From NCBI RefSeq assembly GCF_016864575.1, contig NZ_CP044126.1, positions 558,001-622,000 on the forward strand: 64,000 nucleotides of DNA, given 5' to 3'. Under the pieces are notes generated by a model that saw only the letters and a program-made list of their open reading frames with translations, searched no databases and was not told the DNA's origin. Source of the stretch: Rhizobium sp. BG4 (GTDB lineage: Bacteria > Pseudomonadota > Alphaproteobacteria > Rhizobiales > Rhizobiaceae). The translations under genes and the position numbers were made by a program. This document shows, in pieces, positions 7,848 through 46,323 of this stretch (position 1 is the stretch's first letter; the number at the start of each line of letters is the position of its first letter).

Positions 7848-9155
7848 TTATTGCTCGAGTTCGAACGCGTCCTGAATCTGCTGGGCACCATCCTTGGAGC
7901 TCATCTGGCCCGAGACGATTTCGACCGAGACATCATTGACGACGCGGCCGACGGCAGCGCCAAGATCCTGGTCGAAGAAGTTCTGGTGCCAGGTGGAGCC
8001 GGCCAGCTGCTTGGCGGATTCAGCGAGTAGCGGGTTGACGACCCCGTCATCGGCGCCGACGGCGACCGGCAGCAACATGGCGTTCTTTGCCATCTCGCGT
8101 TCGTTGTCGGCGTTGGTCAGGTAAGCGAGGAAATCGAGCGCTTCCTTGGATGCCTTCTTGGTGACCGCCCAGCCGTTCAGGCCGCCGAGCGTATCGGTTG
8201 CCTTGCCGGCACCGCCTTCGACGGTCGGGAATGCGAAGCGGCCGATATTGTCGGGGGCCAGACCCTTGCCGTCACCGGCATTCTTGCGCTGGTTGGCTTC
8301 GGTGTTTTCAAAGCCAAGGATCATCGCCGCCTTGCCGTCGCCGAAGACGCCGAGCGCCTGCGGCCAGGTCACGCCGAGATAGCCGGGCTGGAAAGGCTCC
8401 AGCTTGCCAAGCTCGGCCAGATCGTCGCCGGCCTTGATGATAGCGGGATCGAGGAAGCCTTCGCCCTCGCCTTTCTTTGCGGCATCGAAGACCTTCTGGC
8501 CGCCTTCGCGCATGACGAGGTAGCTCCAGTAGAAGTGAATCGGCCATTTCTCACCGCCGCCACCGGCGATCGGCACGACGCCGGCATCCTTCAGCTTCTT
8601 CACGGCATCGAGGAAGTTCGCCCAGCTCTTGATATCCTCGGCCTTCACGCCTGCCTTGGCGAAAAGCTCCTTGTTATAGAAGAAGCTGACCAGACCGACC
8701 TTGTAGGGAACCGCCCAGACCTTGCCGTCAAAGGTCATGCCGTTGACGGAGGCCGGGGTGAACTGGTTGCGCAGCTTGCCACCGTCAGCGTCAAGCGCTG
8801 GGGTAACCTCCTGCAGCGCGCCGGTCTCCGACTGCTGCTTCAGGACGCCGCCGCCCCAGGTGTAGAAGAAATCGGGCACGTCGTCCGACTGCAGAAGCGT
8901 CGGCAGCTTGGCCTTGAAGGCCTCGTTTTCCAGGAACTGCATCTGGATATCGACATCGGGATGCAGTTCTTCGTATTTCTTGACGATCTCTTCCCACTTC
9001 GCCACGAATTTCGGATCGAGCTCCAGATGCAGCCACTTGACGACCGTTTTGGCCGAGGCGGCACCGGCGCCGAGCATCAGCGAGACCCCTGCGGCGGCGG
9101 CCAGAAATGCAATGCGCTTGCCGCGAAGGGCCAGGCCCTTGTGCATATACGTCAT
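7848..9155 (-). CDS. Sugar-binding periplasmic protein of an ABC transporter (CUT1)
   Basis: A 435-residue extracellular solute-binding protein, family 1. A signal peptide covers about residues 1-35 (basic start, hydrophobic LAAAAGVSLMLGAGAASA, likely cut before KTVVKW). LHPDVDIQMQFLENEAFKAKLPTLLQSDDVPDFFYTWGGG is typical of sugar binders in this group. GGGAGG lies 7 nt before the ATG. It is transcribed away from a ROK regulator (9362) that probably controls it. The sugar is not identifiable from sequence; the Gfo/Idh and ThuA-like genes nearby favour a disaccharide or polyol. Confidence 0.93.
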   Translation of the reverse strand: MTYMHKGLALRGKRIAFLAAAAGVSLMLGAGAASAKTVVKWLHLELDPKFVAKWEEIVKKYEELHPDVDIQMQFLENEAFKAKLPTLLQSDDVPDFFYTWGGGVLKQQSETGALQEVTPALDADGGKLRNQFTPASVNGMTFDGKVWAVPYKVGLVSFFYNKELFAKAGVKAEDIKSWANFLDAVKKLKDAGVVPIAGGGGEKWPIHFYWSYLVMREGGQKVFDAAKKGEGEGFLDPAIIKAGDDLAELGKLEPFQPGYLGVTWPQALGVFGDGKAAMILGFENTEANQRKNAGDGKGLAPDNIGRFAFPTVEGGAGKATDTLGGLNGWAVTKKASKEALDFLAYLTNADNEREMAKNAMLLPVAVGADDGVVNPLLAESAKQLAGSTWHQNFFDQDLGAAVGRVVNDVSVEIVSGQMSSKDGAQQIQDAFELEQ

Positions 9156-36206: not shown

Positions 36207-39041
36207 TCAGAATTCGACCTTCACGCCCGCATTCGCCGACCAGGAGTTGACCTCGCTGGTATAGGTCCCGAGCGTTACGCCGCTGTAGAGCGTCGTCTGC
36301 GGGTTGACCTGCAATTCGCCCGACAGCCCGAAGCGGCCGCCGACAAGATTGCGGTCGGTGATCGCAGAGACCGTGAAATCCGTGCCGCTCAGGCTGGCGT
36401 TGAGGCCCGAGGCCCCGAGGTTCAGCGTATCGACGAGGGCAGCGCTCAGCGAGACATTCGCCACCATGCCGTTCGTCAGCTTCGTCTGGTTGGTCAGCTT
36501 GCCTTCCAGAATGCCTTCGAGCGTGTGTGAAGTACGGTCGTCGTAGGAGATGTTCTGCGTCGAGCCGGTTTCGGAATAACCCTGATAGAAGCCTGCCGTG
36601 TAGCGCAGCCGTGCCGCCGGGGTGAAGGTCCAGCCCGGAGCGACCTCATGCTTCTGCGAGATGGCGATCTCCGGCGAGACGTACCAGCCGGCGAACGAGC
36701 CGCGGGCCGGATCGGAACCGAAGATCTCGCGGCGGCTGTCATTCTCGATGCCACCAGCCACCAGCGAGCTATCGAGCGTCACGCCGCTGAAATCGTTGCG
36801 CATGTAGACGCCGCCGAAGCCGGTATTGCCGGCCGTCTGGCCGGAGCCGTCGTCGGCGCGGTTGATGATGCGGCCGTAACCGGCGAGCACGCCGAAGCGG
36901 CCGTCGTCGAACTGGCGGTCGACACCAGCGGCAACGCCGTAGTTGCTGGAGCGCGTGTCGTTATCGTTGTCGAAGGTCTGGCCGCCGAAGGCGCGCATCC
37001 AGAACAGGTTGCCGAAGCGGTCGACAGCCGTGCCCTCGCCAAGCTTCTGAACGGCGGCTGCCGAACCCGTCGGCTTCCTTTCCTCGGCATAGCCGAGAGC
37101 GCTGGTGCCCGACGATTCGCTACCCCCGCCTGCAGAAGAACCGACATCGATATTGAGGATCGAGCCAATGACATTGCCGACGGAATTCGTATAGCCGCGA
37201 ACTGCCGCATCCATCGATGAAGCGCCGGGATCGACGACCTCGAGCCTGCCGTTATTGCTATTCGAATCCACGGAGACGATCAGCGATTGGCGAGAGTTGT
37301 TCAGGCTGATCTGGTTGAGCGCCGTCTCGTAATTGTCAACGGCGAGAGAATAGCTGCCGGAACCGAAGTTCGTAGCGTTGTTCTCGGTGGAGTCATAATC
37401 CACCGCGCCCTTGATGACCGAGCCCGGCAGAAGGTTAAGCGTGTTTCCGTCAGAGAGAAACCGGATGGAGTTCACGCCGCCGGAGATCGTGCCGCTATTG
37501 GTGATGGTTGCGGAACTGGAGGCGAGAATACCGTACGTGCCGCCGGAAATCGTGCCGCTATTGTCAATGGTCATAGCGCCACCGTTAGCGGAAATGATCG
37601 CGTTCAGGTCTGCCGAAATTGTGCCGCTGTTGCTGATCGAGGCGGAAGTATTGGATGTTGAGATCACCCCCGTCTGTCCAGTGATCGTGCCGCTGTTCAC
37701 CAGCGAAAACTCCCCGGTAGAGGCCGCATATACGCCTTGGAAGTCGCCCGCGATCCGACCGCTATTGTTTACGCTGATTTCATCGGAGTAACCTATAGCC
37801 AGGGCCTGCACGCCGGCAATCGAACCGCTATTGGCAATCCTTAGAGTTTCTCCGTCATAAGCCTGAACACCACCATTGATCACACCGGAGTTTACGAGAT
37901 CAAGGCTGGTGTTGCTGGACCAGATGCCATAGCTGTAGCCGGAAATCGTCCCGGTATTGGTCACCCTCGCAACAGACTCGTCGCCATTCAGGAAGAGACC
38001 GTAATAGTCGCCGGAAATCTTGCCGCTGTTGACGATCGTGGCGTTGTCGACACGTTGAAGGCTTACGCCGTAAAGATAGCTGATGCCGCCGGCTGCGTAG
38101 ATATTGCCGCTGTTCTCGAGCGAAAATTCTGCTTGTACGTCTTCGGCATAGATCCCGGCCTGGGCACCGGAGATCGTTCCGCTGTTCTGAATGGAAATGC
38201 TTTGCCCGTTGATGTCCGCAAGATTGATTCCGGAATTCGTCTCGCCCGAAATCGTGCCGCTATTGGTGATGGCGATCGTTGAATCATCCCATCCGCCCGA
38301 GTCGATATTCAGGCCGTTGTAAGCGCCCGAGATCGTACCGCTGTTGGAAATGACCCCGCCTTCGATGCGATAGAGATCGATGCCTGTGCCGGCGACGCTC
38401 GAAATCGTGCCGCTATTGTCGATGGCGATATCGAAGGCGCTATAGGCATAGATACCTGCGCTGCTGCCGGCGAAATGGCTGGCGAAATTGTCAGCCCCCG
38501 TACTGGCAATCGTGCCGCTATTGCTGATCGAGAAATCGAAGACATATCCAAAACCGACACCGAAATCATGGCCGCTGATCGTACCGGCATTGTTGATCAC
38601 CGTCCCATCAGGCTCCGAACCGTCGCCCGGAATGCTCGTGACGGAGATGCCTGCCGAGCCGGATACGCCATCAGTGCCGGAAATCGTGGCACCGGCAGCA
38701 TTGGTGATAGTGTTGTTGCTAGACCGGTCGATCATCACGCCAGACCAGTTACCGGAGATCTCGCCGCCAGCCAGGTTGCTAATCGAGATACCGTCGGAAG
38801 AGGGAGCGACGTGGACCGCAGCCTCAGGCGAAGAGATCGTACCCGAATTCTCGACGGTACAGTCAGTCTGGTCGGCAATGACATTGCCGGATACAACGCA
38901 ATCCGCCGCCATCGCTTTATTCACCGGCATCGTCGCGAAAAGCGCGACCGACGAAACGCCTGCGAGGAAGACCGCCGTCAAAGCGTGATTTCGTCCGCCG
39001 CGAATTACCTGGCCGCCTTCGGTCAGAGTAGAGTTGCTCAT
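36207..39041 (-). CDS. Autotransporter with NSGTIS-repeat passenger and C-terminal beta-barrel
   Basis: 944 residues from ATG 39041 (MSNSTLTEGGQV; AGGGGA 9 nt upstream). An extended signal peptide covers about 1-47 (ALTAVFLAGVSSVALFATMPVNKAMA). The passenger holds roughly 17 degenerate repeats of the form I-x-N-S-G-T-I-S-G at 15-30 residue spacing, the usual start of beta-helix rungs, over about residues 55-545. A spacer with a Gly/Ser run (GSSAGGGSESSGTSA) follows. The last 260 or so residues form the barrel (GNLFWMRAFGGQTFDND to the final aromatic-ended VKVEF). It should export its passenger to the surface as an adhesin-like protein. A regulator gene lies just upstream on the same strand. 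Confidence 0.93.
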   Translation of the reverse strand: MSNSTLTEGGQVIRGGRNHALTAVFLAGVSSVALFATMPVNKAMAADCVVSGNVIADQTDCTVENSGTISSPEAAVHVAPSSDGISISNLAGGEISGNWSGVMIDRSSNNTITNAAGATISGTDGVSGSAGISVTSIPGDGSEPDGTVINNAGTISGHDFGVGFGYVFDFSISNSGTIASTGADNFASHFAGSSAGIYAYSAFDIAIDNSGTISSVAGTGIDLYRIEGGVISNSGTISGAYNGLNIDSGGWDDSTIAITNSGTISGETNSGINLADINGQSISIQNSGTISGAQAGIYAEDVQAEFSLENSGNIYAAGGISYLYGVSLQRVDNATIVNSGKISGDYYGLFLNGDESVARVTNTGTISGYSYGIWSSNTSLDLVNSGVINGGVQAYDGETLRIANSGSIAGVQALAIGYSDEISVNNSGRIAGDFQGVYAASTGEFSLVNSGTITGQTGVISTSNTSASISNSGTISADLNAIISANGGAMTIDNSGTISGGTYGILASSSATITNSGTISGGVNSIRFLSDGNTLNLLPGSVIKGAVDYDSTENNATNFGSGSYSLAVDNYETALNQISLNNSRQSLIVSVDSNSNNGRLEVVDPGASSMDAAVRGYTNSVGNVIGSILNIDVGSSAGGGSESSGTSALGYAEERKPTGSAAAVQKLGEGTAVDRFGNLFWMRAFGGQTFDNDNDTRSSNYGVAAGVDRQFDDGRFGVLAGYGRIINRADDGSGQTAGNTGFGGVYMRNDFSGVTLDSSLVAGGIENDSRREIFGSDPARGSFAGWYVSPEIAISQKHEVAPGWTFTPAARLRYTAGFYQGYSETGSTQNISYDDRTSHTLEGILEGKLTNQTKLTNGMVANVSLSAALVDTLNLGASGLNASLSGTDFTVSAITDRNLVGGRFGLSGELQVNPQTTLYSGVTLGTYTSEVNSWSANAGVKVEF
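37480..38870 (-). repeat. Degenerate repeats encoding NSGTIS rungs
   Basis: On the plus strand the words CCGCTATTG and ATCGTGCCGCTATT recur many times as the reverse complement of codons for N-S-G-T-I. The spacing varies, so these are protein-level repeats of a beta-helix and not a DNA array. The repeats make this stretch prone to recombination and assembly error. Confidence 0.8.
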
Positions 39042-39188
39042 TTTCAAAATCCCCTGTTGCGAGCGAAATTCAAGGCCCGCAGTCCTGTCCAATCGAGTCG
39101 GCGCTCCGGTGAACGCCTTGTGTGAAATCGGAAATCTCATGACGGCCCGATTTCGACAACGGATGCGTCAAAAATGGACGGTGGCGCC

Positions 39189-40124
39189 TCATGACGCCTC
39201 CGTCCGGGCCGCCAAAGCCCTGGAAAAGGCGTCGTCCAGAATGGATAGTTTGGTCGCCTGCGCTTGCGCATACTGCCTGCGGAAATCGTGCGAGATCCAG
39301 AGCGGCGAGCGCCCGCGCAAACCGCTCCAGCCGGCGCCGCCCGCAGCCTCGGCCGCCGAAAGCTTGCGGCTGACATGCGCGCGCGACAGGCCGGCGAAGC
39401 TCGCGAGAGAGGAGATGGAGGTGATATCCGTCTCGTATCGATCGAATGTCGCAGGGATCGTCAGGTCGATGCCGCCGAAGAGCCGGTCCATGATCAGGCC
39501 ACCGGCATCGACACGCGAAAACGTGGCATAGAGCAGGCCCGAGTTGCGTATCCCGGGAGCCGCCAGCAGGCCGTCGGCCACATCCGGCTGCATCTGCAAG
39601 AGCAGATTGTCGGCATCGGCGCGGAACAGGCTGGCGCGACTGCCCCCGTCGATGACATCGAGCGCTTCGAAATGCAGGCCATACCAATGGGCGAGCATGC
39701 CGATGACTTTCGGCGACGGTACGAACCGGTGATGGCCGCCGGGCCGGCGCAGCGTCACCAGCCGGACGAAATCGTATTTCAGCGCCTCATCGATGAAGGC
39801 ATGCACGGTGTTGCGGCTGGCGATCGCGTAGCGGTCCGACATCTCCACCAGAACGGGCCGCGTCAGACCGCGGCCGATGCCACCCGTCCTGAAATGCGCC
39901 CCGAGCGCCGCGTGGCAGAGCAGCCAGCGCTGTTCGGTCGCAAACAGCGCGGCAATGCGCGGCTCCGCCTGATGTGTCGCGACGAAAGCCTGCGCCAGGC
40001 GCTGCAGCGCCTCGGAAAAGACCGGATCGAAGGGATCGAGGGCCGCCATTGCTAGGCGATCATGCCGGACGACGTCCGGCTCAAGCGCCCGCGCTGCAGA
40101 AGAATTGTAATGCAGGCCCATCAT
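39189..40124 (-). CDS. Winged-helix transcriptional regulator (MarR/Crp-like HTH), next to autotransporter
   Basis: About 311 residues from ATG 40124 (MMGLHYNSSAARALEPD). A helix-turn-helix is visible near the C-terminus (ITSISSLASFAGLSRAHVSRKLSAAEAAG), and a possible second one at RYAIASRNTVHAFIDEALKYDFVRLV. The family is not certain. It is followed by the autotransporter gene on the same strand after 147 bp and faces the OmpR-type regulator at 40406, so control of the surface protein is inferred. The start is uncertain: GAAGGG abuts the first ATG. Confidence 0.7.
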   Translation of the reverse strand: MMGLHYNSSAARALEPDVVRHDRLAMAALDPFDPVFSEALQRLAQAFVATHQAEPRIAALFATEQRWLLCHAALGAHFRTGGIGRGLTRPVLVEMSDRYAIASRNTVHAFIDEALKYDFVRLVTLRRPGGHHRFVPSPKVIGMLAHWYGLHFEALDVIDGGSRASLFRADADNLLLQMQPDVADGLLAAPGIRNSGLLYATFSRVDAGGLIMDRLFGGIDLTIPATFDRYETDITSISSLASFAGLSRAHVSRKLSAAEAAGGAGWSGLRGRSPLWISHDFRRQYAQAQATKLSILDDAFSRALAARTEAS

Positions 40125-40265
40125 CCCTTCGCGTCTTCGTTTGAGACCGCCAGGCGATTTGCGCGAGCGGCGACCCGCCGCTCCGTTCAAGGCGTTCGCT
40201 GCCGGCGAGGTCGATGCAGTTGATAGGCGAGCCGCTGCGGGACGTCCTGAATAGGACTGGCGGTG

Positions 40266-40293
40266 TTCTGAAAAACTTCTGAATTTTTCTGAA
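40266..40293. promoter_or_regulatory. Three phased direct repeats TTCTGAA in a divergent promoter
   Basis: TTCTGAA occurs at 40266-40272, 40277-40283 and 40287-40293, spaced 11 and 10 bp, one helical turn apart. This is the layout bound by OmpR/ToxR-type winged helices, which is the domain at the N-terminus of the gene at 40406. They lie in the 281-bp gap between the two divergent regulators. Confidence 0.6.
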
Positions 40294-40405
40294 TGCACCG
40301 CAGGAGCGGAACTCTCCCGATGATGGCCGCCGGTACGAGTTGACGGCTGAGCTCCACCTTTCCTATGTAGGGGCTCATGTCGCGGCCGCTTCACGGTAGG
40401 ATCGG

Positions 40406-42056
40406 GTGTTTCGTTTTACTGAATTTGCTTTCGATCCGCATCGCGCCGAGCTCCTGCGCCCCGACGGACAGACGATACGCCTACGGCCGCAGGCGAGCGC
40501 GCTGCTGCAGTTTTTCATCGACAACAACAAGCGCATCCTCAGCAAACATGACCTGATGGAAGCGGGCTGGCCCGGCATTCACGTCGCCGAAGACAGCTTG
40601 TTTCAATGCATCCGGGAAATCCGCAAGGCACTCGGAGACGAGGCGCGGCAGACGCTGAGGGTCGTCTCGCGCCGCGGCTATATTCTCTCGGCGACCGCGA
40701 TCTCCGATGGGCCGGAAGCAGCACCCGATGGCGGCGATGCGGATCGGCTCCCCTCCCCGCGTAGAGCAGCCTCCAGGCCTTTCGTCTCGCGGGCAAAGCT
40801 TCTATCGGGCGCCTTCATCGTCATCGCCGCGCTGGCAGGACTGACCTATCGCTTCATCGCAAGCGACCAGACGCAGCCGTCGTCCCCGCCCGTGATCGAC
40901 ATCTTGCCGATCGCCGATCTGACCGACGATCCGCAGAGCGGAGCGATGATCCGCGGCATCACCAACCAACTGCTGGACGGGCTCGCCCGCACCGGCGGCG
41001 TGCAGGTGAGACCGCCGGAACCCGCGTCCTCCGGCGGTGACAATCCTCACCCCGGCTTCCAGCTACAGCAAGAGCTTGAACGCAGCGCTCAGGCATGGAC
41101 CCTCAGAACCCGGATCATCGATGCCTCGACCCGCGAAATTCGCTTCTCCAGCGAAGCTGCGCTTGACGCTGATGTTACCGATGAGGCACTCGGCCAGACC
41201 CGGCTTGCGGCGAGCGCCGGTTACGCCATCGCCACCTGGCTCGATCAGCAGAGGGAAGTTCCTTTCAGAAGGAACCCTGACGCCGCCAACGCGGCGATCG
41301 AGCAGGCGATCAGCTCGATCAATCAGACGACCAAGGAGCGGTTCGCGACTGCGCGATCGATCCTCGAAACCTATCTCGCCCAGCAGCCCGACAATGTAGA
41401 TCTGCAGGTCGCGCTTGCCGCCCTGCATCTGCGCGGCATCCAGCTCTCATGGTACGGCGAGGCAGAGAAGACAAAAAAAAGAGGATGCCCGCGCGCTGAT
41501 CGAGAACGCGCTGAAGAGCCGCCCGATGTCGGCCAATGTGCTCGGCACCTATTGCCGGTTTCTCGCGGCGACGAACGCGTTTTCCGAGGCATTGGTCGCT
41601 TGCGCGCGTGACCTGGACCTCAATCCGTGGGACGGCGGAGCGCTCTTCAATCTGGGGCTGACGCAGATCCAGCTCGGCCGCTTCGAGGATGCGCTCTCGA
41701 CATTCCAGCGGGCCGACCGATTCAATACGCCCGATGTCTCCCGCTGGACCTGGCTGCTTGGCGCCGGCTGGGCAAACGTGATGCTTGGGCGCGACGAGGA
41801 AGCCCTGACCTGGCTGCAGCGCGCCATCGCCATTACCCCGGGCACCGGGCGGGCGCATATGCTGCTAGCCGTCGCCTATCAAAGGCTCGGCCGGACGGCG
41901 GATGCGAAGAATGCGCTTGCCCAGGCTCTCAAGCTCCGCCCGGGCTCAACCGCCAGCAACATCTCGCTTCCCGCGGAAAATGTCAGCCAGATCTATCTCG
42001 ACAAGCGCCAGGAGATCAGCAACATCCTCATAGAACTCGGGCTGCCGCCTGGCTGA
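40406..42056 (+). pseudogene. CadC/ToxR-type membrane regulator with TPR domain, frameshifted at an A8 run
   Basis: Residues 1-95 form an OmpR-type DNA-binding domain (FRFTEFAFDPHRAELLRPDG, HVAEDSLFQCIREIRKALGDE, LRVVSRRGYIL). A membrane helix follows at about 133-150 (LLSGAFIVIAALAGLTYRF), then a periplasmic sensor and TPR helices. The first frame fails at 41472-41480, where eight A's follow AC. With seven A's the reading continues as KKEDARALIENALKSRPM through TPR repeats (GGALFNLGLTQIQLGRFEDALSTFQRA) to 42056, giving 549 residues. The cause could be a mutation, a sequencing error, or programmed slippage on the A-run. It probably regulates the neighbouring surface-protein locus. Confidence 0.85.
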
Positions 42057-42068
42057 AATTGCGGGATT

Positions 42069-42082
42069 TTGATCTCGATCAA
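42069..42082 (+). promoter_or_regulatory. FixK box in a gene-free interval
   Basis: TTGATCTCGATCAA is a perfect TTGAT-N4-ATCAA FixK/Fnr site. It lies between two convergent genes, so it serves no annotated ORF. Class II spacing puts a rightward start near 42117, just where a run of hairpins begins. Confidence 0.85.
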
Positions 42083-42116
42083 GGAAGCCGGTGCCTGAGC
42101 AGCTAGGTTTGTCTCG

Positions 42117-42262
42117 CGGGCCGGGAGCGCCCGCGTCAAGTAGGGCAACTTGACAGAGGCTTGGCCGGTCCAGGGGCATGGCGCCGGGCAAGCCTCCGCG
42201 TCCCCGCTCTCCTTCCCTGCACAACGCGGAAACGATGAAGCGGCGCAATCGCCTGCTTCATC
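42117..42262 (+). ncRNA. Candidate FixK-controlled small RNA
   Basis: No open frame of note, but four consecutive stem-loops: CGCGGGC/GCCCGCG (42115-42135), GTCAAGT/ACTTGAC (42135-42154), AGGCTTG/CAAGCCT extended by CCGG/CCGG (42157-42195), and GATGAAGC with GGCG pairing CGCC and GCTTCATC (42234-42262). The first begins at the start predicted from the FixK box at 42069. The last lacks a T-run on the plus strand and may double as the terminator of the leftward CBS-BON gene. Ends are estimates. This is an inference from structure and promoter, with no expression evidence. Confidence 0.45.
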
Positions 42263-42265
42263 GCC

Positions 42266-42955
42266 CTACATGACCGCAAGCTCGGCTTCCGCCTTCGGCA
42301 TTTCCACGCGCAGCTGATCCCGGTAGCCGCCAAGCCCGAGGGCTTCGACGAGGGTGCGGACGGCTTTGCGTTTCAGGTCGGATTCCACCTGTCCCTCCAG
42401 CGTCACCTGGCCGTTACGCACGGAGACCTGCACCTTCTGAGGCGTCAGGCCGAGATCGGAACGCAGCCGCGTGCGCACCGCGAGACGGATCGCCTCGTCC
42501 TCGCGCGGCAGCGCCGTTGTCGAGGCGTCGAGGATCATGCCGAGGATATCGCTGCGGCTGACGATGCCGACCAACCTGCCGTCTTCGACGATCGGCAGCC
42601 GCTTGATACGATGCGCCTGCAGGCTTTCGGCGATATCGGCCACCTCGCTGTCGGGACGGGCAACGATGACATCCTCAGACATCACATCCCTGACCGACCA
42701 GCCGTGGCTGGCGATATAGCGTTCTAGATCGGTCTCGGACATCACTTCGGCAGTCCGCGCCATGCGCGGCGAAACGCGGATCTCCCGGCGCAGCAGCAGA
42801 TCGCCCTCGGTCAGCATACCGCAAACCCGGCCCTCGTCATCGACGACAGGAAGACCGCTGACCCGCTTCTGCATCATGACGGCCACGGCATGGCGGATGC
42901 CGACTGCCGGGCTGATCGACACCACGTCTGTGGTCATAATGTCCTTCGCCTGCAT
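42266..42955 (-). CDS. CBS-domain pair plus BON domain protein
   Basis: 229 residues. Two CBS motifs cover about 1-150 (MQAKDIMTTDVVSISPAVGIRHAVAVM, WSVRDVMSEDVIVARPDSEVADIAESLQ with GIVSRSDIL), the adenosyl-nucleotide-sensing module. A BON domain (EAIRLAVRTRLRSDLGLTPQKVQVSVRNGQVTLEGQV) fills the C-terminus. CBS-BON proteins are common in rhizobia and poorly known. A FixK box at 43021 gives a leader of about 31 nt, so microoxic induction is predicted. Confidence 0.93.
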   Translation of the reverse strand: MQAKDIMTTDVVSISPAVGIRHAVAVMMQKRVSGLPVVDDEGRVCGMLTEGDLLLRREIRVSPRMARTAEVMSETDLERYIASHGWSVRDVMSEDVIVARPDSEVADIAESLQAHRIKRLPIVEDGRLVGIVSRSDILGMILDASTTALPREDEAIRLAVRTRLRSDLGLTPQKVQVSVRNGQVTLEGQVESDLKRKAVRTLVEALGLGGYRDQLRVEMPKAEAELAVM

Positions 42956-43020
42956 GCCGGTGCCTCACTCGCCCTGAATATCGATGGCGTCGAGGTTAGC
43001 GGGCGTCGGAAGGCACCGCT

Positions 43021-43034
43021 TTGATCTCTGTCAA
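43021..43034 (-). promoter_or_regulatory. FixK box upstream of the CBS-BON gene
   Basis: TTGATCTCTGTCAA fits TTGAY-N4-RTCAA. Centred 72 bp before the ATG at 42955, it predicts a start near 42986. Confidence 0.82.
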
Positions 43035-43054
43035 ATGCGCGCATTGGCCGCGCG

Positions 43055-43798
43055 CTATTGCGGCCTGCCGGTGAAGACATAGCCGACGCCGCGCACCGAT
43101 TGGATCAGCGCCGGTTCCTTGGGGTCGGTTTCGATCTTCTTGCGCAGCCGGACGATCTGGGCGTCGATTGCCCGGTCGAAGGCTTCGAGATTGCGGTTTC
43201 TGGTCTGATCCATCAGCGTTTCGCGCGACAGAACCCGGCCGCGATTGCGCACAAAGACGAGCAGCATGTCGAATTCGCCCGTCGTCAGCGCCACGTCGTC
43301 CCCACCGGGAGAGGTCAGCCGCCGCCGGGCGACATCGAGCCGCCAGCCATCGAACTGCAGCACTTCCTCTTCGCCACCCGCCGGCCGAACGGTCTGATCG
43401 GCAGGCACGCGGCGCCGGAGCACGGTGCGCAGCCGCGCCAGCAGTTCGCGCAGGTGGAAGGGCTTGGCGATATAATCGTCGGCACCGATCTCAAGGCCGA
43501 CCACCTTGTCGGTGACGTCGTCCTGACCGGTCAGCATCAGCACGGGCACATCGGATGTGGCGCGCAGCTCCTTCAGCAGCTCCAGCCCGTTCTCGCCATT
43601 GGGCAGGACGAGATCAAGGAAGATCGCGGCATAGCTGCCCTTGGCAAGCTCGGAGCGCATCGCGGCACCGTTGCCGACGGCGCTGACCCTGTATCCGTTA
43701 TCCTCGAAATACCGAACGAGCATCTGCCTGATCCGGGCGTCGTCATCGACTACCAGAATGCGATCTGCTTCCATGTCACCCGTTCGTCCCGCTTCCAT
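43055..43798 (-). CDS. fxkR: OmpR/PhoB-family response regulator, FxkR-like
   Basis: About 247 residues: receiver domain with the acidic pair in ILVVDDDARIRQ, phospho-Asp in IFLDLVLPNG, switch Thr in PVLMLTGQDD and Lys in DDYIAKPFHLREL; then an OmpR winged helix (ALTTGEFDMLLVFVRNRGRVLSRETLMD, RNLEAFDRAIDAQIVRLRKKIE). The start is unsure (43807, 43798 or 43774). R. etli uses an OmpR-type regulator named FxkR between hybrid FixL and fixK. This gene fits that role by family and location, and there is no FixJ or partner kinase beside it. The symbol rests on context. Confidence 0.9.
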   Translation of the reverse strand: MEAGRTGDMEADRILVVDDDARIRQMLVRYFEDNGYRVSAVGNGAAMRSELAKGSYAAIFLDLVLPNGENGLELLKELRATSDVPVLMLTGQDDVTDKVVGLEIGADDYIAKPFHLRELLARLRTVLRRRVPADQTVRPAGGEEEVLQFDGWRLDVARRRLTSPGGDDVALTTGEFDMLLVFVRNRGRVLSRETLMDQTRNRNLEAFDRAIDAQIVRLRKKIETDPKEPALIQSVRGVGYVFTGRPQ

Positions 43799-43882
43799 GC
43801 TTTCCATCAGAGATAACGCAGGTTTAGCGGCGGCGCTACCATGCGCGCGACAGCGATTGCGACCATGGACAGAAAAGGTTGC

Positions 43883-44038
43883 TTAGGCCGGCGGATTGGC
43901 ATCGTCATCGGCAATCGCCCGCCAGGCGGCCCCTTCGAGATCCTCATACTGGCCGCTTTTCAGCGACCAGAGAAAAGCGGCAAGTCCGATGCCGCCCATG
44001 AAGAGCGCGATCGGGATCAGATAGATCAGCATGTTCAT
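43883..44038 (-). CDS. fixS: FixS (CcoS), cbb3 oxidase maturation protein
   Basis: 51 residues, MNMLIYLIPIALFMGGIGLAA at the start, one membrane helix (3-23) with the FLWSLKSGQYEDLEG segment shared by CcoS proteins and an acidic tail. The ATG at 44038 overlaps the fixI stop (ATGA). FixS is needed to insert cofactors into cbb3 oxidase together with the copper pump FixI. Confidence 0.93.
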   Translation of the reverse strand: MNMLIYLIPIALFMGGIGLAAFLWSLKSGQYEDLEGAAWRAIADDDANPPA

Positions 44039-46323
44039 GCGGCTCGGGCCTCCGCCTGGGTAGCGGTAGGCGCGGGTCGCTCGTTTGCGGCAGCGCCCTT
44101 TCCGAAAGCGTTGAGCCGCAGCGCGTTGGAGACCACGATGATCGACGAGGTCGACATCGCCACCGCGGCGATCAGCGGTGTCGCCAGACCCGCAAGCGCG
44201 ATCGGCACGGCCAGCACGTTATAGCCGATCGCCAGAGCGAAATTCTGGCGGATCAGCGCCGCCGACCGGCGGGCGACGGCGATCGCCACCGGCACGGCAT
44301 CCAGCCGGTCGTTGAAGAACACCAGATCCGCCGCCTGCCGGCCGATATCGGAGGCGGTGGCCGGGGCCATCGAGACATGCGCAGCAGCAAGCGCCGGCGC
44401 GTCATTGATGCCATCACCGACCATGAAGACGCGGTGGCTGTTGCCATTCAGCGCCTGGCATTCCCCGACCTTTTCTCCCGGCGTCAGCCCTCCAAGCGCG
44501 CGTCCGATACCGAGCGCACGCGCCGTATTGTCGACGACGCTCTGCCGGTCGCCGGAGAGGATTGCCGTCGCGAACCCCGCCTCGCGGAGCTCAGCGACGG
44601 CTTCGGCTGCGCCCGGCCGCAGCGTGTCGTCGAAGAAGAAGCGGGCAATGGCCTGGCCATCCCTGGAGAAGACCACCTCGGAATAGGGACCTTCGTTTGA
44701 GAGCGATGCCTCGGCGCCGCCGCAGGCGAAGGCCTCGCTGCCAAGCCGGTAGAGCACACCCGCCTGGCGCGCTTCGAGGCCCCCGCCCGGGATTTCCATG
44801 ATCTGCTCGAAGGCCGCGGCATCTGAAGTGCCGGTGCGTGCCAGGGCCTGCGACAGCGGGTGGCGTGAATGGCTCGCCAAGGCCGCCGCCCTAGCGATAT
44901 CGGCCGGATCAGCGGCGTTGGCGGCAACGAGCCGCGGCCTGCCGATCGTCAGCGTACCCGTCTTGTCGAAAGCGATGGTGTCGATCTCGGCCAGACGCTC
45001 AAGCGCCGATCCATCCTTGACCATGATGCCGCGGCGGAAGAGTTCGCCGGCAGCCACGACCTGGACGACGGGAACGGCGAGACCGAGCGCGCAGGGGCAG
45101 GTGATGATCAGCACCGCGACGGCAACCAGCATCGCCTGTTTCCAGTCGCCGCCGATGAGGCCCCAACCAAGGAAGGACGCGAGCGCCAGGAGGTGGACGA
45201 CCGGCGAATAGAGCGCGGCCGCGCGGTCGGCGATCCGCCGGTAGCGGGCGCGGCCGCCTTCGGCCGCTTCCATCAAGCCGATGATTTCGGCGAGCAGTGA
45301 ATCCCGCGCAAGGCGCGTGGCGCGGACCGCCAGCGAGCCGGTGAGGTTCATCGAGCCGGAACTGACCGGCTGGCCGGTCCGAACCGCGACCGGGCTGCTC
45401 TCGCCCGTCACGATCGACAGGTCGAGATCGCTTTGACCGGACACGACAACACCGTCGACAGGGATACGGTCGCCTGCCGCAACGGCGATTTCGTCACCAA
45501 CAGAAATTTCCTCGACCGCCACATAGCGGTGCGATCCATCCGGCTGGATCAGCAATGCGCCGCGCGGCGCGATCCGCGCCAGACCGTTGATCGCAGCCCG
45601 CGCCTTCTCGCGCATGACGTGATCCAGCGTCCGGCCGATCAGCAGGAAGAACAGCAGCGAAACCGTGGCGTCGAACCAGGCATGTTCGCCATGATGCATG
45701 GTCTCCCAGAGCGAGACGAAATAGGAGAGCGTGACCGCCAACGAGATCGGCACATCCATATTGGTGCGGCCATGCTTCAAAGCATTCCAGGCCGACTGGA
45801 AGAAGAAGCGGCCCGAATAGATCAGCGCCGGGGCGGCGATCATCGCCGAAATCCAGTGGAACATGTCGCGTGTTGCCGCGTCGGCGCCCGACCAGACGGA
45901 TACCGAGAGCAGCATGATATTGGTTGCCGCAAAGCCCGCGACGCCGACGGCAAGCAGCAGCTGGTTGCGGGTCTTGTCACTCTCGGCCGCAAGCGGCGCG
46001 TAGAGATGCGCGCGGTATCCCGCGCCTGCGACCGCCGCGATGATCTGCGTGGGGTCGACAGCCCTGCCCCCGGCCTTTTCGGCATAGACGCAGGTGACGC
46101 GGCGCGCCGTCAGGTTGACGCGCGCCTTGCTGACGAAGGGCAGCGCCGTCAGCGCTTTCTCGATCGTCGAAATGCAGGCGCCGCAATGGACATCGGGCAC
46201 GCTGAGATCGAGCTGGTGCAGCCCGCCGCCGAGCGGATGGCTGGCGAGCGCGATCTCCTCGGCACTGAAGGCCGTGGTGCTCATCGCCATCACCCCGTCG
46301 GCATCGATCGCGCAGCAGGTCAT
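44035..46323 (-). CDS. fixI: FixI (CcoI), copper-exporting P1B-type ATPase for cbb3 oxidase
   Basis: 762 residues: an N-terminal Cys motif MTCCA, an HMA metal domain with DVHCGACISTIEKAL at about 40-54, eight membrane helices, the metal-transport CPC in ITCPCALGLAVP, phosphorylation DKTGTLT and the GDGINDAPALAAA hinge. It moves copper across the inner membrane for assembly of the FixN binuclear centre. Overlaps fixH and fixS by 4 nt each, so the set is translationally coupled. Confidence 0.97.
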   Translation of the reverse strand: MTCCAIDADGVMAMSTTAFSAEEIALASHPLGGGLHQLDLSVPDVHCGACISTIEKALTALPFVSKARVNLTARRVTCVYAEKAGGRAVDPTQIIAAVAGAGYRAHLYAPLAAESDKTRNQLLLAVGVAGFAATNIMLLSVSVWSGADAATRDMFHWISAMIAAPALIYSGRFFFQSAWNALKHGRTNMDVPISLAVTLSYFVSLWETMHHGEHAWFDATVSLLFFLLIGRTLDHVMREKARAAINGLARIAPRGALLIQPDGSHRYVAVEEISVGDEIAVAAGDRIPVDGVVVSGQSDLDLSIVTGESSPVAVRTGQPVSSGSMNLTGSLAVRATRLARDSLLAEIIGLMEAAEGGRARYRRIADRAAALYSPVVHLLALASFLGWGLIGGDWKQAMLVAVAVLIITCPCALGLAVPVVQVVAAGELFRRGIMVKDGSALERLAEIDTIAFDKTGTLTIGRPRLVAANAADPADIARAAALASHSRHPLSQALARTGTSDAAAFEQIMEIPGGGLEARQAGVLYRLGSEAFACGGAEASLSNEGPYSEVVFSRDGQAIARFFFDDTLRPGAAEAVAELREAGFATAILSGDRQSVVDNTARALGIGRALGGLTPGEKVGECQALNGNSHRVFMVGDGINDAPALAAAHVSMAPATASDIGRQAADLVFFNDRLDAVPVAIAVARRSAALIRQNFALAIGYNVLAVPIALAGLATPLIAAVAMSTSSIIVVSNALRLNAFGKGAAANERPAPTATQAEARAA

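Follow-up and report, generated by a model that had tools for sequence, protein, structure and literature searches.

The stretch of DNA analysed here, called the window throughout, comprises 64,000 nt of Rhizobium sp. BG4 (assembly GCF_016864575.1, contig NZ_CP044126.1, positions 558,001-622,000 of the forward strand), in which low-oxygen respiration genes of Rhizobium adjoin a putative RNA gene (Table 1). The sequence taken to be the promoter of that gene, TTGATCTCGATCAA, is an exact FixK/FnrN box (anaerobox) and so satisfies the regulon pattern TTGAT-N4-ATCAA or a close variant of it. A plus-strand open reading frame (ORF) ends at 42056, to the left of the box, and the gene to its right, encoding a CBS-BON protein, is convergent, so that the box has no protein gene to serve. 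The 6.42 Mb genome holds eight perfect boxes, this one included, and no instance of the reversed control pattern; the window itself holds two where 0.04 would be expected, and seven sites with at most one mismatch against an expectation of 1.22. Solely the box at 42069 among those seven faces no ORF start. Judged by position, the remaining six near-perfect boxes lie roughly 7-90 bases upstream of ORFs, which encode CBS-BON, fixG, fixN, pseudoazurin, cytochrome b and hemerythrin-like products (names assigned by eye, CBS-BON excepted). The CBS-BON gene thus stands behind a box of its own, TTGATCTCTGTCAA, and most homologous loci inspected have a TTGA-N6-TCAA sequence at roughly the corresponding position.

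Table 1. Features of the putative RNA locus and of two named carriers; positions are those of the window unless a replicon is given.
Feature	Position	Strand	Basis
FixK/FnrN box TTGATCTCGATCAA, taken as the RNA promoter	42069-42082	+	Exact match
Probable -10 element, TAGGTT	42104-42109	+	TA (T36 A37) invariant in alignment A1
Predicted transcription start	42114-42116	+	Box-end-to-start distances of fixNOQP9 and fixGHIS9
Structured RNA, about 90 nt (3' end uncertain)	42115-42205	+	Covariance model match, covariation
P0 closing stem, 5' arm (partner 42197-42201)	42116-42120	+	A3 columns 4-8 with 105-109
P1 hairpin, CGGG-AGCG-CCCG	42122-42133	+	A3 consensus; single-sequence fold gives a longer stem, 42116-42134
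P2 hairpin	42135-42154	+	A3 consensus, minimum-energy fold
P3 long hairpin	42156-42196	+	A3 consensus, minimum-energy fold
Unconserved stem immediately after the CBS-BON stop, excluded from the RNA	42234-42262		By eye, comparison with relatives
Convergent gene for a CBS-BON protein with two CBS stretches and one BON	42266-42955	-	ORF and domain search
Second box TTGATCTCTGTCAA, upstream of the leftward-reading CBS-BON gene	43021-43034	+	Scan allowing at most one mismatch
Element in R. johnstonii 3841	pRL9 (NC_008379.1) 8787-8880
Element in R. etli CFN 42	p42f 554459-554546

Three further genes of the window were recorded in passing. The ORF to the left of the box belongs to a winged-helix plus TPR gene (40406-42056, plus strand) that falls into two frames, the break lying close to an A8 run around 41472, whereas homologues in genomes G019 and G020 (loci L006 and L003) match both halves in one frame; a sequencing slip, a pseudogene and a real frameshift are each possible. 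An autotransporter gene (36207-39140, minus strand; Pfam PF03797) carries many NSGTISG-like repeats. Between the CBS-BON gene and fixI lies a gene for an OmpR-type response regulator (43055-43807, minus strand), which we take to be a candidate FxkR; in its place pRL9 has a hypothetical gene, ccmE, a Crp/Fnr gene and ccoS.

Homologues were sought in 148 genomes of the genus, that of strain BG4 included. A DNA search with positions 42060-42266 as query (E up to 0.01) gave any match in 26 genomes, and 13 core-spanning sequences, the window among them, were aligned after L019, L022-L034, L036 and L037 had been dropped as short matches. Between clades, near gap-free agreement opens with the box, lasts through the third hairpin and hardly goes further, and the flanking DNA is mostly unalignable. 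R1, a covariance model restricted to the RNA, reported 32 of the 148 genomes at E up to 0.1; once weak matches in G006 (L067), G129 and G135 and all antisense matches had been dropped from the counts, 31 homologous places in 29 genomes were left, and a second, better model, R2, recovers exactly those 31 together with one antisense echo. The window is matched at 42113-42205 with 90.7 bits, which holds by construction because it is in the model's training set. BG4 has one copy, so that a dispersed repeat or mobile element was rejected for its genome; G066 and G087 have two copies each, every copy beside its own copy of the CBS-BON gene.

Beyond the genus the RNA was not recovered. Among 394 family genomes drawn, R2 gave two matches at E≤0.01, both within Rhizobium and none outside it; these scans scored ten first-look candidates per genome, and diverged relatives could be missed by so shallow a first look. 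R1 had returned weak matches in eight genomes outside the genus (E 0.0016-0.095), which were rejected, as no box lies upstream of them and none passes 0.01 with R2. A pattern scan of one genome per species across 84,980 species found 16 stretches, of which 15 are from Rhizobium, all with a model match; the count is a lower bound because the pattern misses the window's own variant. The sixteenth stretch, from Aliiroseovarius (L079), has no model match and was taken as chance.

The box accompanies the RNA at a near-constant distance: at 26 of the 31 places a TTG-N8-CAA sequence starts 64-69 bases before the P2 anchor. Fifteen of these have the form TTGA-N6-TCAA (three of them perfect), nine TTGC- or TTGT-N6-TCAA and two TTGA-N6-GCAA. 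The FixK2 box of Bradyrhizobium has the form TTG(A/C)-N6-(T/G)CAA, which would cover the TTGC boxes. The box region lies outside the RNA model; of the 18 places that the model found and the DNA search missed, 13 nonetheless carry TTG-N8-CAA at the same spacing, three of these being TTGA-N6-TCAA. The promoter is damaged or displaced at the other five places, all inside the R. etli-type clade, through an extra base (L051), a lost base (L066), a spacing about 20 shorter (L065), a left half that is not recognisable (L062) or an altered right half (L090). The TA of the probable -10 element is invariant in the 12 sequences of alignment A1, but not in every homologue found later (for example L052).

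The start of transcription is predicted here by calibration on two published starts, no transcript of the RNA having been seen. Anaerobox promoters of R. leguminosarum have been reported to start 32-34 bp after the end of the box (PMC7888657), and when the published starts of strain 3841 are placed on the sequence, the distances are 33 bases for fixNOQP9 and 32 for fixGHIS9. Applied to the box at 42069, these put the predicted start at the very edge of the fold, whose stem P0 begins at 42116. The transcript, as inferred from this predicted start, would open at the fold's first base pair.

The conserved unit, approximately 42114-42205, consists of hairpins P1-P3 and the weaker closing stem P0. 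Folding of 42115-42205 gives a minimum energy of -52.0 kcal/mol (z -2.74, with one shuffle in 200 reaching as low) with stems at 42116-42134, 42135-42154 and 42156-42196. The element of strain 3841 folds with z -5.56 and that of R. etli CFN 42 with z -3.43, the single-sequence fold of the latter being mainly P3 together with other pairings. In all 30 rows of alignment A3 (see below) the minimum-energy fold is more stable than one made of the consensus pairs alone, and by eye an alternative pairing of the 3' arm of P1 with the P2 loop is conceivable.

Support for the pairings among relatives rests on two alignments. A2, made with MAFFT and not fitted to any structure, has 13 rows (11 distinct), in which 95.6% of cells pair, against 29-47% when partners are shifted by 1-3 columns; cells altered on both sides yet still paired (double-sided changes) number 13 against 4.8 in shuffles, and none of 500 shuffles reached as many. 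A3 has 30 rows (28 distinct) and was fitted to R1, L066, the weakest of the 31, being left out. Over its distinct rows, P0 included, 95.7% of cells pair (35-47% with shifted partners) and there are 33 double-sided changes against 11.0, again with 0 of 500 shuffles as high, although the shift by +3 alone reaches 13 double-sided cells. P3 holds six of the ten pairs that are altered on both sides. Further pair types are no more numerous than in shuffles in either alignment (9 against 10.3 in A2, 19 against 18.7 in A3), and related sequences can beat shuffles of this kind without any structure. A3 moreover leans toward P1-P3 because it was fitted to R1. P0 is not in R1 and was selected only after the alignment had been inspected; it pairs in 92.9% of A3 cells, its first pair occurring as G-C, G-U and A-U types across rows, while in the window four of its five pairs form and the stem is absent from the minimum-energy fold. 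In P1-P3, G-U cells outnumber A-C cells in A3 by 28 to 5, which indicates the plus strand, albeit with a lean that comes from fitting A3 to a plus-strand model. All 28 distinct rows retain GG(C)A(A/G) in the apical loop of P2; the loops of P1 and P3 differ in both length and letters.

An initial annotation, which had been made from sequence alone, can be judged against these results. It had described a perfect box at 42069 with convergent flanking genes and none to serve, which held, and a start near 42117, which is 1-3 bases from the calibrated prediction. Of the four stems it had proposed the first three held; the fourth (42234-42262) is present in the sequence, and was rejected as part of the RNA since nothing equivalent could be seen by eye in L048, the nearest relative, or in the other relatives. 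P0 had been missed. Half of the test set for the proposal concerned relatives (conservation and covariation) and the other half a plus-strand transcript; the first half was satisfied, since diverged species share the box, its spacing and the stems, with compensatory changes.

The convergent CBS-BON gene lies beside the RNA at all 31 places (L060 contains part of the gene only), with a gap that varies from 36 bp in CFN 42 through 60 in the window to 267 in strain 3841. On the upstream side, hemA reading away is the neighbour at 17 of the 31 places and the TPR gene is the neighbour in the window. Upstream ORFs were scanned at nine other loci, six of which have a same-strand redoxin-type (ccmG-like) gene; the rest have IS21 (L045), a TnpB-like gene (L063) and, at L042, an ORF for which no known match was found when it was tested. 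The gene at L063 (2017-3096, minus strand; Pfam PF07282), upstream of the RNA in G141, is TnpB/Cas12f-like. In L049-L052, L057 and L090, part of the R. etli-type clade, a further inverted repeat of the GGCGCGATGACGGCGCGCC type is kept between the RNA and the CBS-BON gene.

CBS-BON orthologues (E up to 1e-60) number 49 in 47 of the 148 genomes, and the RNA stands beside 31 of them and is absent at 18. With filters off, the best model match at those 18 loci has an E of 1.1, and at 16 of them the 420 bases next to the CBS-BON end contain no box; two annotated examples have ccm genes in the RNA's place. On a tree of the CBS-BON proteins (48 of 49 rows, L060 being too short) presence of the RNA changes 5 times, against 14.7 with shuffled labels, and the RNA is therefore mostly inherited and probably lost in places. 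Its distribution is patchy, and it has likely been lost at least once. By eye, the last 100 bases before the CBS-BON end in L128 (G028) and L127 (G123) contain a degenerate box-like sequence and no RNA, followed by the context CAAAGA(A/C)GCGG found in some RNA promoters; this looks like a possible remnant after loss of the RNA. A stretch between hemA and the RNA in L093 (3520-3720, pRL9 8519-8719) looks, again by eye, like the last part of a ccmG/dsbE-like gene, and might be a relic of the ccmG-CBS-BON order of genomes without the RNA.

The RNA's 3' end is uncertain. T-runs of at least four starting within 20 bases of the model end occur in 7 of 30 copies: L060, L061, L063 and L064 end in CTCGC-TTTT right after P0, and L054-L056 have a T-run 8-14 bases past the model end. 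The other 23 copies, the window's included, have none within that distance, and a simple scan of 41500-43000 found no promoter-like or terminator-like site. An intrinsic terminator with a U-tract is typical of Hfq-dependent sRNAs, and the window's copy does not have one. Ending by Rho, by processing or by read-through toward the CBS-BON gene all remain conceivable.

Comparison with known RNAs gave no family to which the element could be assigned. Rfam 15 has no match near its gathering cut-off for window positions 40000-44500 or for loci L040, L045, L052 and L063, the matches reported (snoZ248, mir-Ro6-3) being far below it. Enterobacteria have FnrS, an Fnr-activated sRNA that a regulator of the Crp/Fnr family directly switches on when oxygen is low. 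The Rhizobium RNA would share that control, which for it is merely predicted; it differs in having no credible Rfam match and few copies with a U-tract, and it was found in Rhizobium alone among the genomes scanned. The RFMSmelA075/SmelA099 sRNAs of Rhizobiales have CCUCCUCCC (anti-Shine-Dalgarno) loops and several copies per genome (PMC3927594). They have a rhizobial origin and several hairpins in a row in common with the present RNA, whose kept loop is instead G-rich, whose CCUCC lies in the P3/P0 stems, and which is single-copy in BG4. In promoter layout the fixNOQP and fixGHIS anaerobox operons of strain 3841 (PMC7888657) are comparable: they have the same box, and their distance from box to start, applied here, places the predicted start at the fold; those are protein operons, whereas the RNA promoter faces no protein gene. 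In the titles and abstract openings of the open-access literature searched, no FixK- or FnrN-dependent rhizobial sRNA is described, and PMC6515984 has no passage on the box terms. The RNA may possibly be among the 89 expressed candidate regions in Table S1 of a tiling-array study of R. etli (PMC2881028), and a public start-site data set for strain 3841 is named in PMC7888657 (BioProject PRJNA667846).

The sequences give good support for a conserved structured RNA tied to a FixK/FnrN box: the box, its spacing, the fold, the covariation, the plus-strand bias and the CBS-BON linkage are all shown at that level. The best explanation, which we regard as likely, is a previously unrecorded FixK/FnrN-activated small RNA gene; its transcription, its control by FixK/FnrN and the RNA as its product are inferred. 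The initial annotation had read the locus as a candidate FixK-induced sRNA, undescribed so far, and this is mostly supported, with neither an Rfam 15 family nor a report in the literature searched to set against it. As to the activator, FnrN is conceivable as well as FixK. When oxygen falls, FixK and/or FnrN would bind the box at 42069 and RNA polymerase would start at 42114-42116; the RNA, compact and roughly 90 nt long, would fold as hairpins P1-P3, with P0 able to close a four-way junction. The element is, as far as its sequence goes, the stand-alone non-coding unit with conserved structure that a trans-acting sRNA should be, and lone transcription has not been shown. Action in trans, by base-pairing with mRNAs or by protein binding through the exposed P2 loop, is inferred; that loop is kept in every distinct row while those of P1 and P3 vary. 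Action in trans is our first choice among modes of action, though at somewhat less than even odds, and its main rival is action in cis on the CBS-BON gene.

The cis reading remains possible. A FixK-driven RNA without a terminator would run antisense into the 3' part of the CBS-BON gene, the fold protecting its 5' end, and the CBS-BON gene, itself behind a box, would be tuned by interference or duplex formation. In its favour are the head-on arrangement at every one of the homologous places despite varied upstream neighbours (hemA, redoxin/ccmG-like, IS21, TnpB-like and TPR genes), the few T-runs past the fold, and the boxes at both promoters in most loci inspected. Against it, the gap between RNA and CBS-BON gene is variable and unconserved, the part that is kept is the 5' fold, and the linkage could be plain vertical inheritance. 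A bolder version, which we consider unlikely, would see here a four-way-junction RNA of a class not described before, controlled by oxygen, whose first base pair coincides with its start and which mostly has no U-tail; acting in cis with the CBS-BON gene, it would set the micro-oxic respiration programme of Rhizobium.

It is also unlikely that the RNA is a relic, decaying and useless in the R. etli-type clade and active elsewhere, the window included. All five damaged promoters and the RNA-less G084 (L135) do fall inside that clade of the CBS-BON tree; however, P2 and P3 are well kept there, L065 excepted, and the window box is perfect. A terminator or 3' processing signal of the ccmG-like gene (plus strand) or the CBS-BON gene (minus strand), with the box incidental, would suit hairpins between converging genes and the same-strand redoxin-type gene upstream at six of nine scanned loci. 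This is very unlikely: the scanned region of the window has no terminator-like site on either strand and plus-strand T-runs are few elsewhere (the minus strand of other copies lay outside the scan), 18 of 49 CBS-BON loci have no model match alongside, gene and fold are separated by a box whose spacing is nearly constant, and the G-U bias speaks against a minus-strand role. A small protein gene under FixK control is all but excluded: the P2 loop does resemble a ribosome site before TTG in many rows, but the distance between two fixed points takes every value modulo 3 (13, 8 and 7 of 28), ORF lengths are very unequal and one clade has an extra base after CAGA, so that coding was rejected.

Overall, the small RNA gene remains the preferred reading, and what it would mean concerns the reach of two familiar regulators. 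The established role of FixK and FnrN is to activate protein operons of the nitrogen-fixing symbiosis. If the reading is true, a conserved RNA under their direct control in the same cluster would constitute a riboregulatory arm, through which these activators could also repress, with a logic comparable to that of FnrS in enterobacteria; two strains in standard laboratory use, 3841 and R. etli CFN 42, carry the element.
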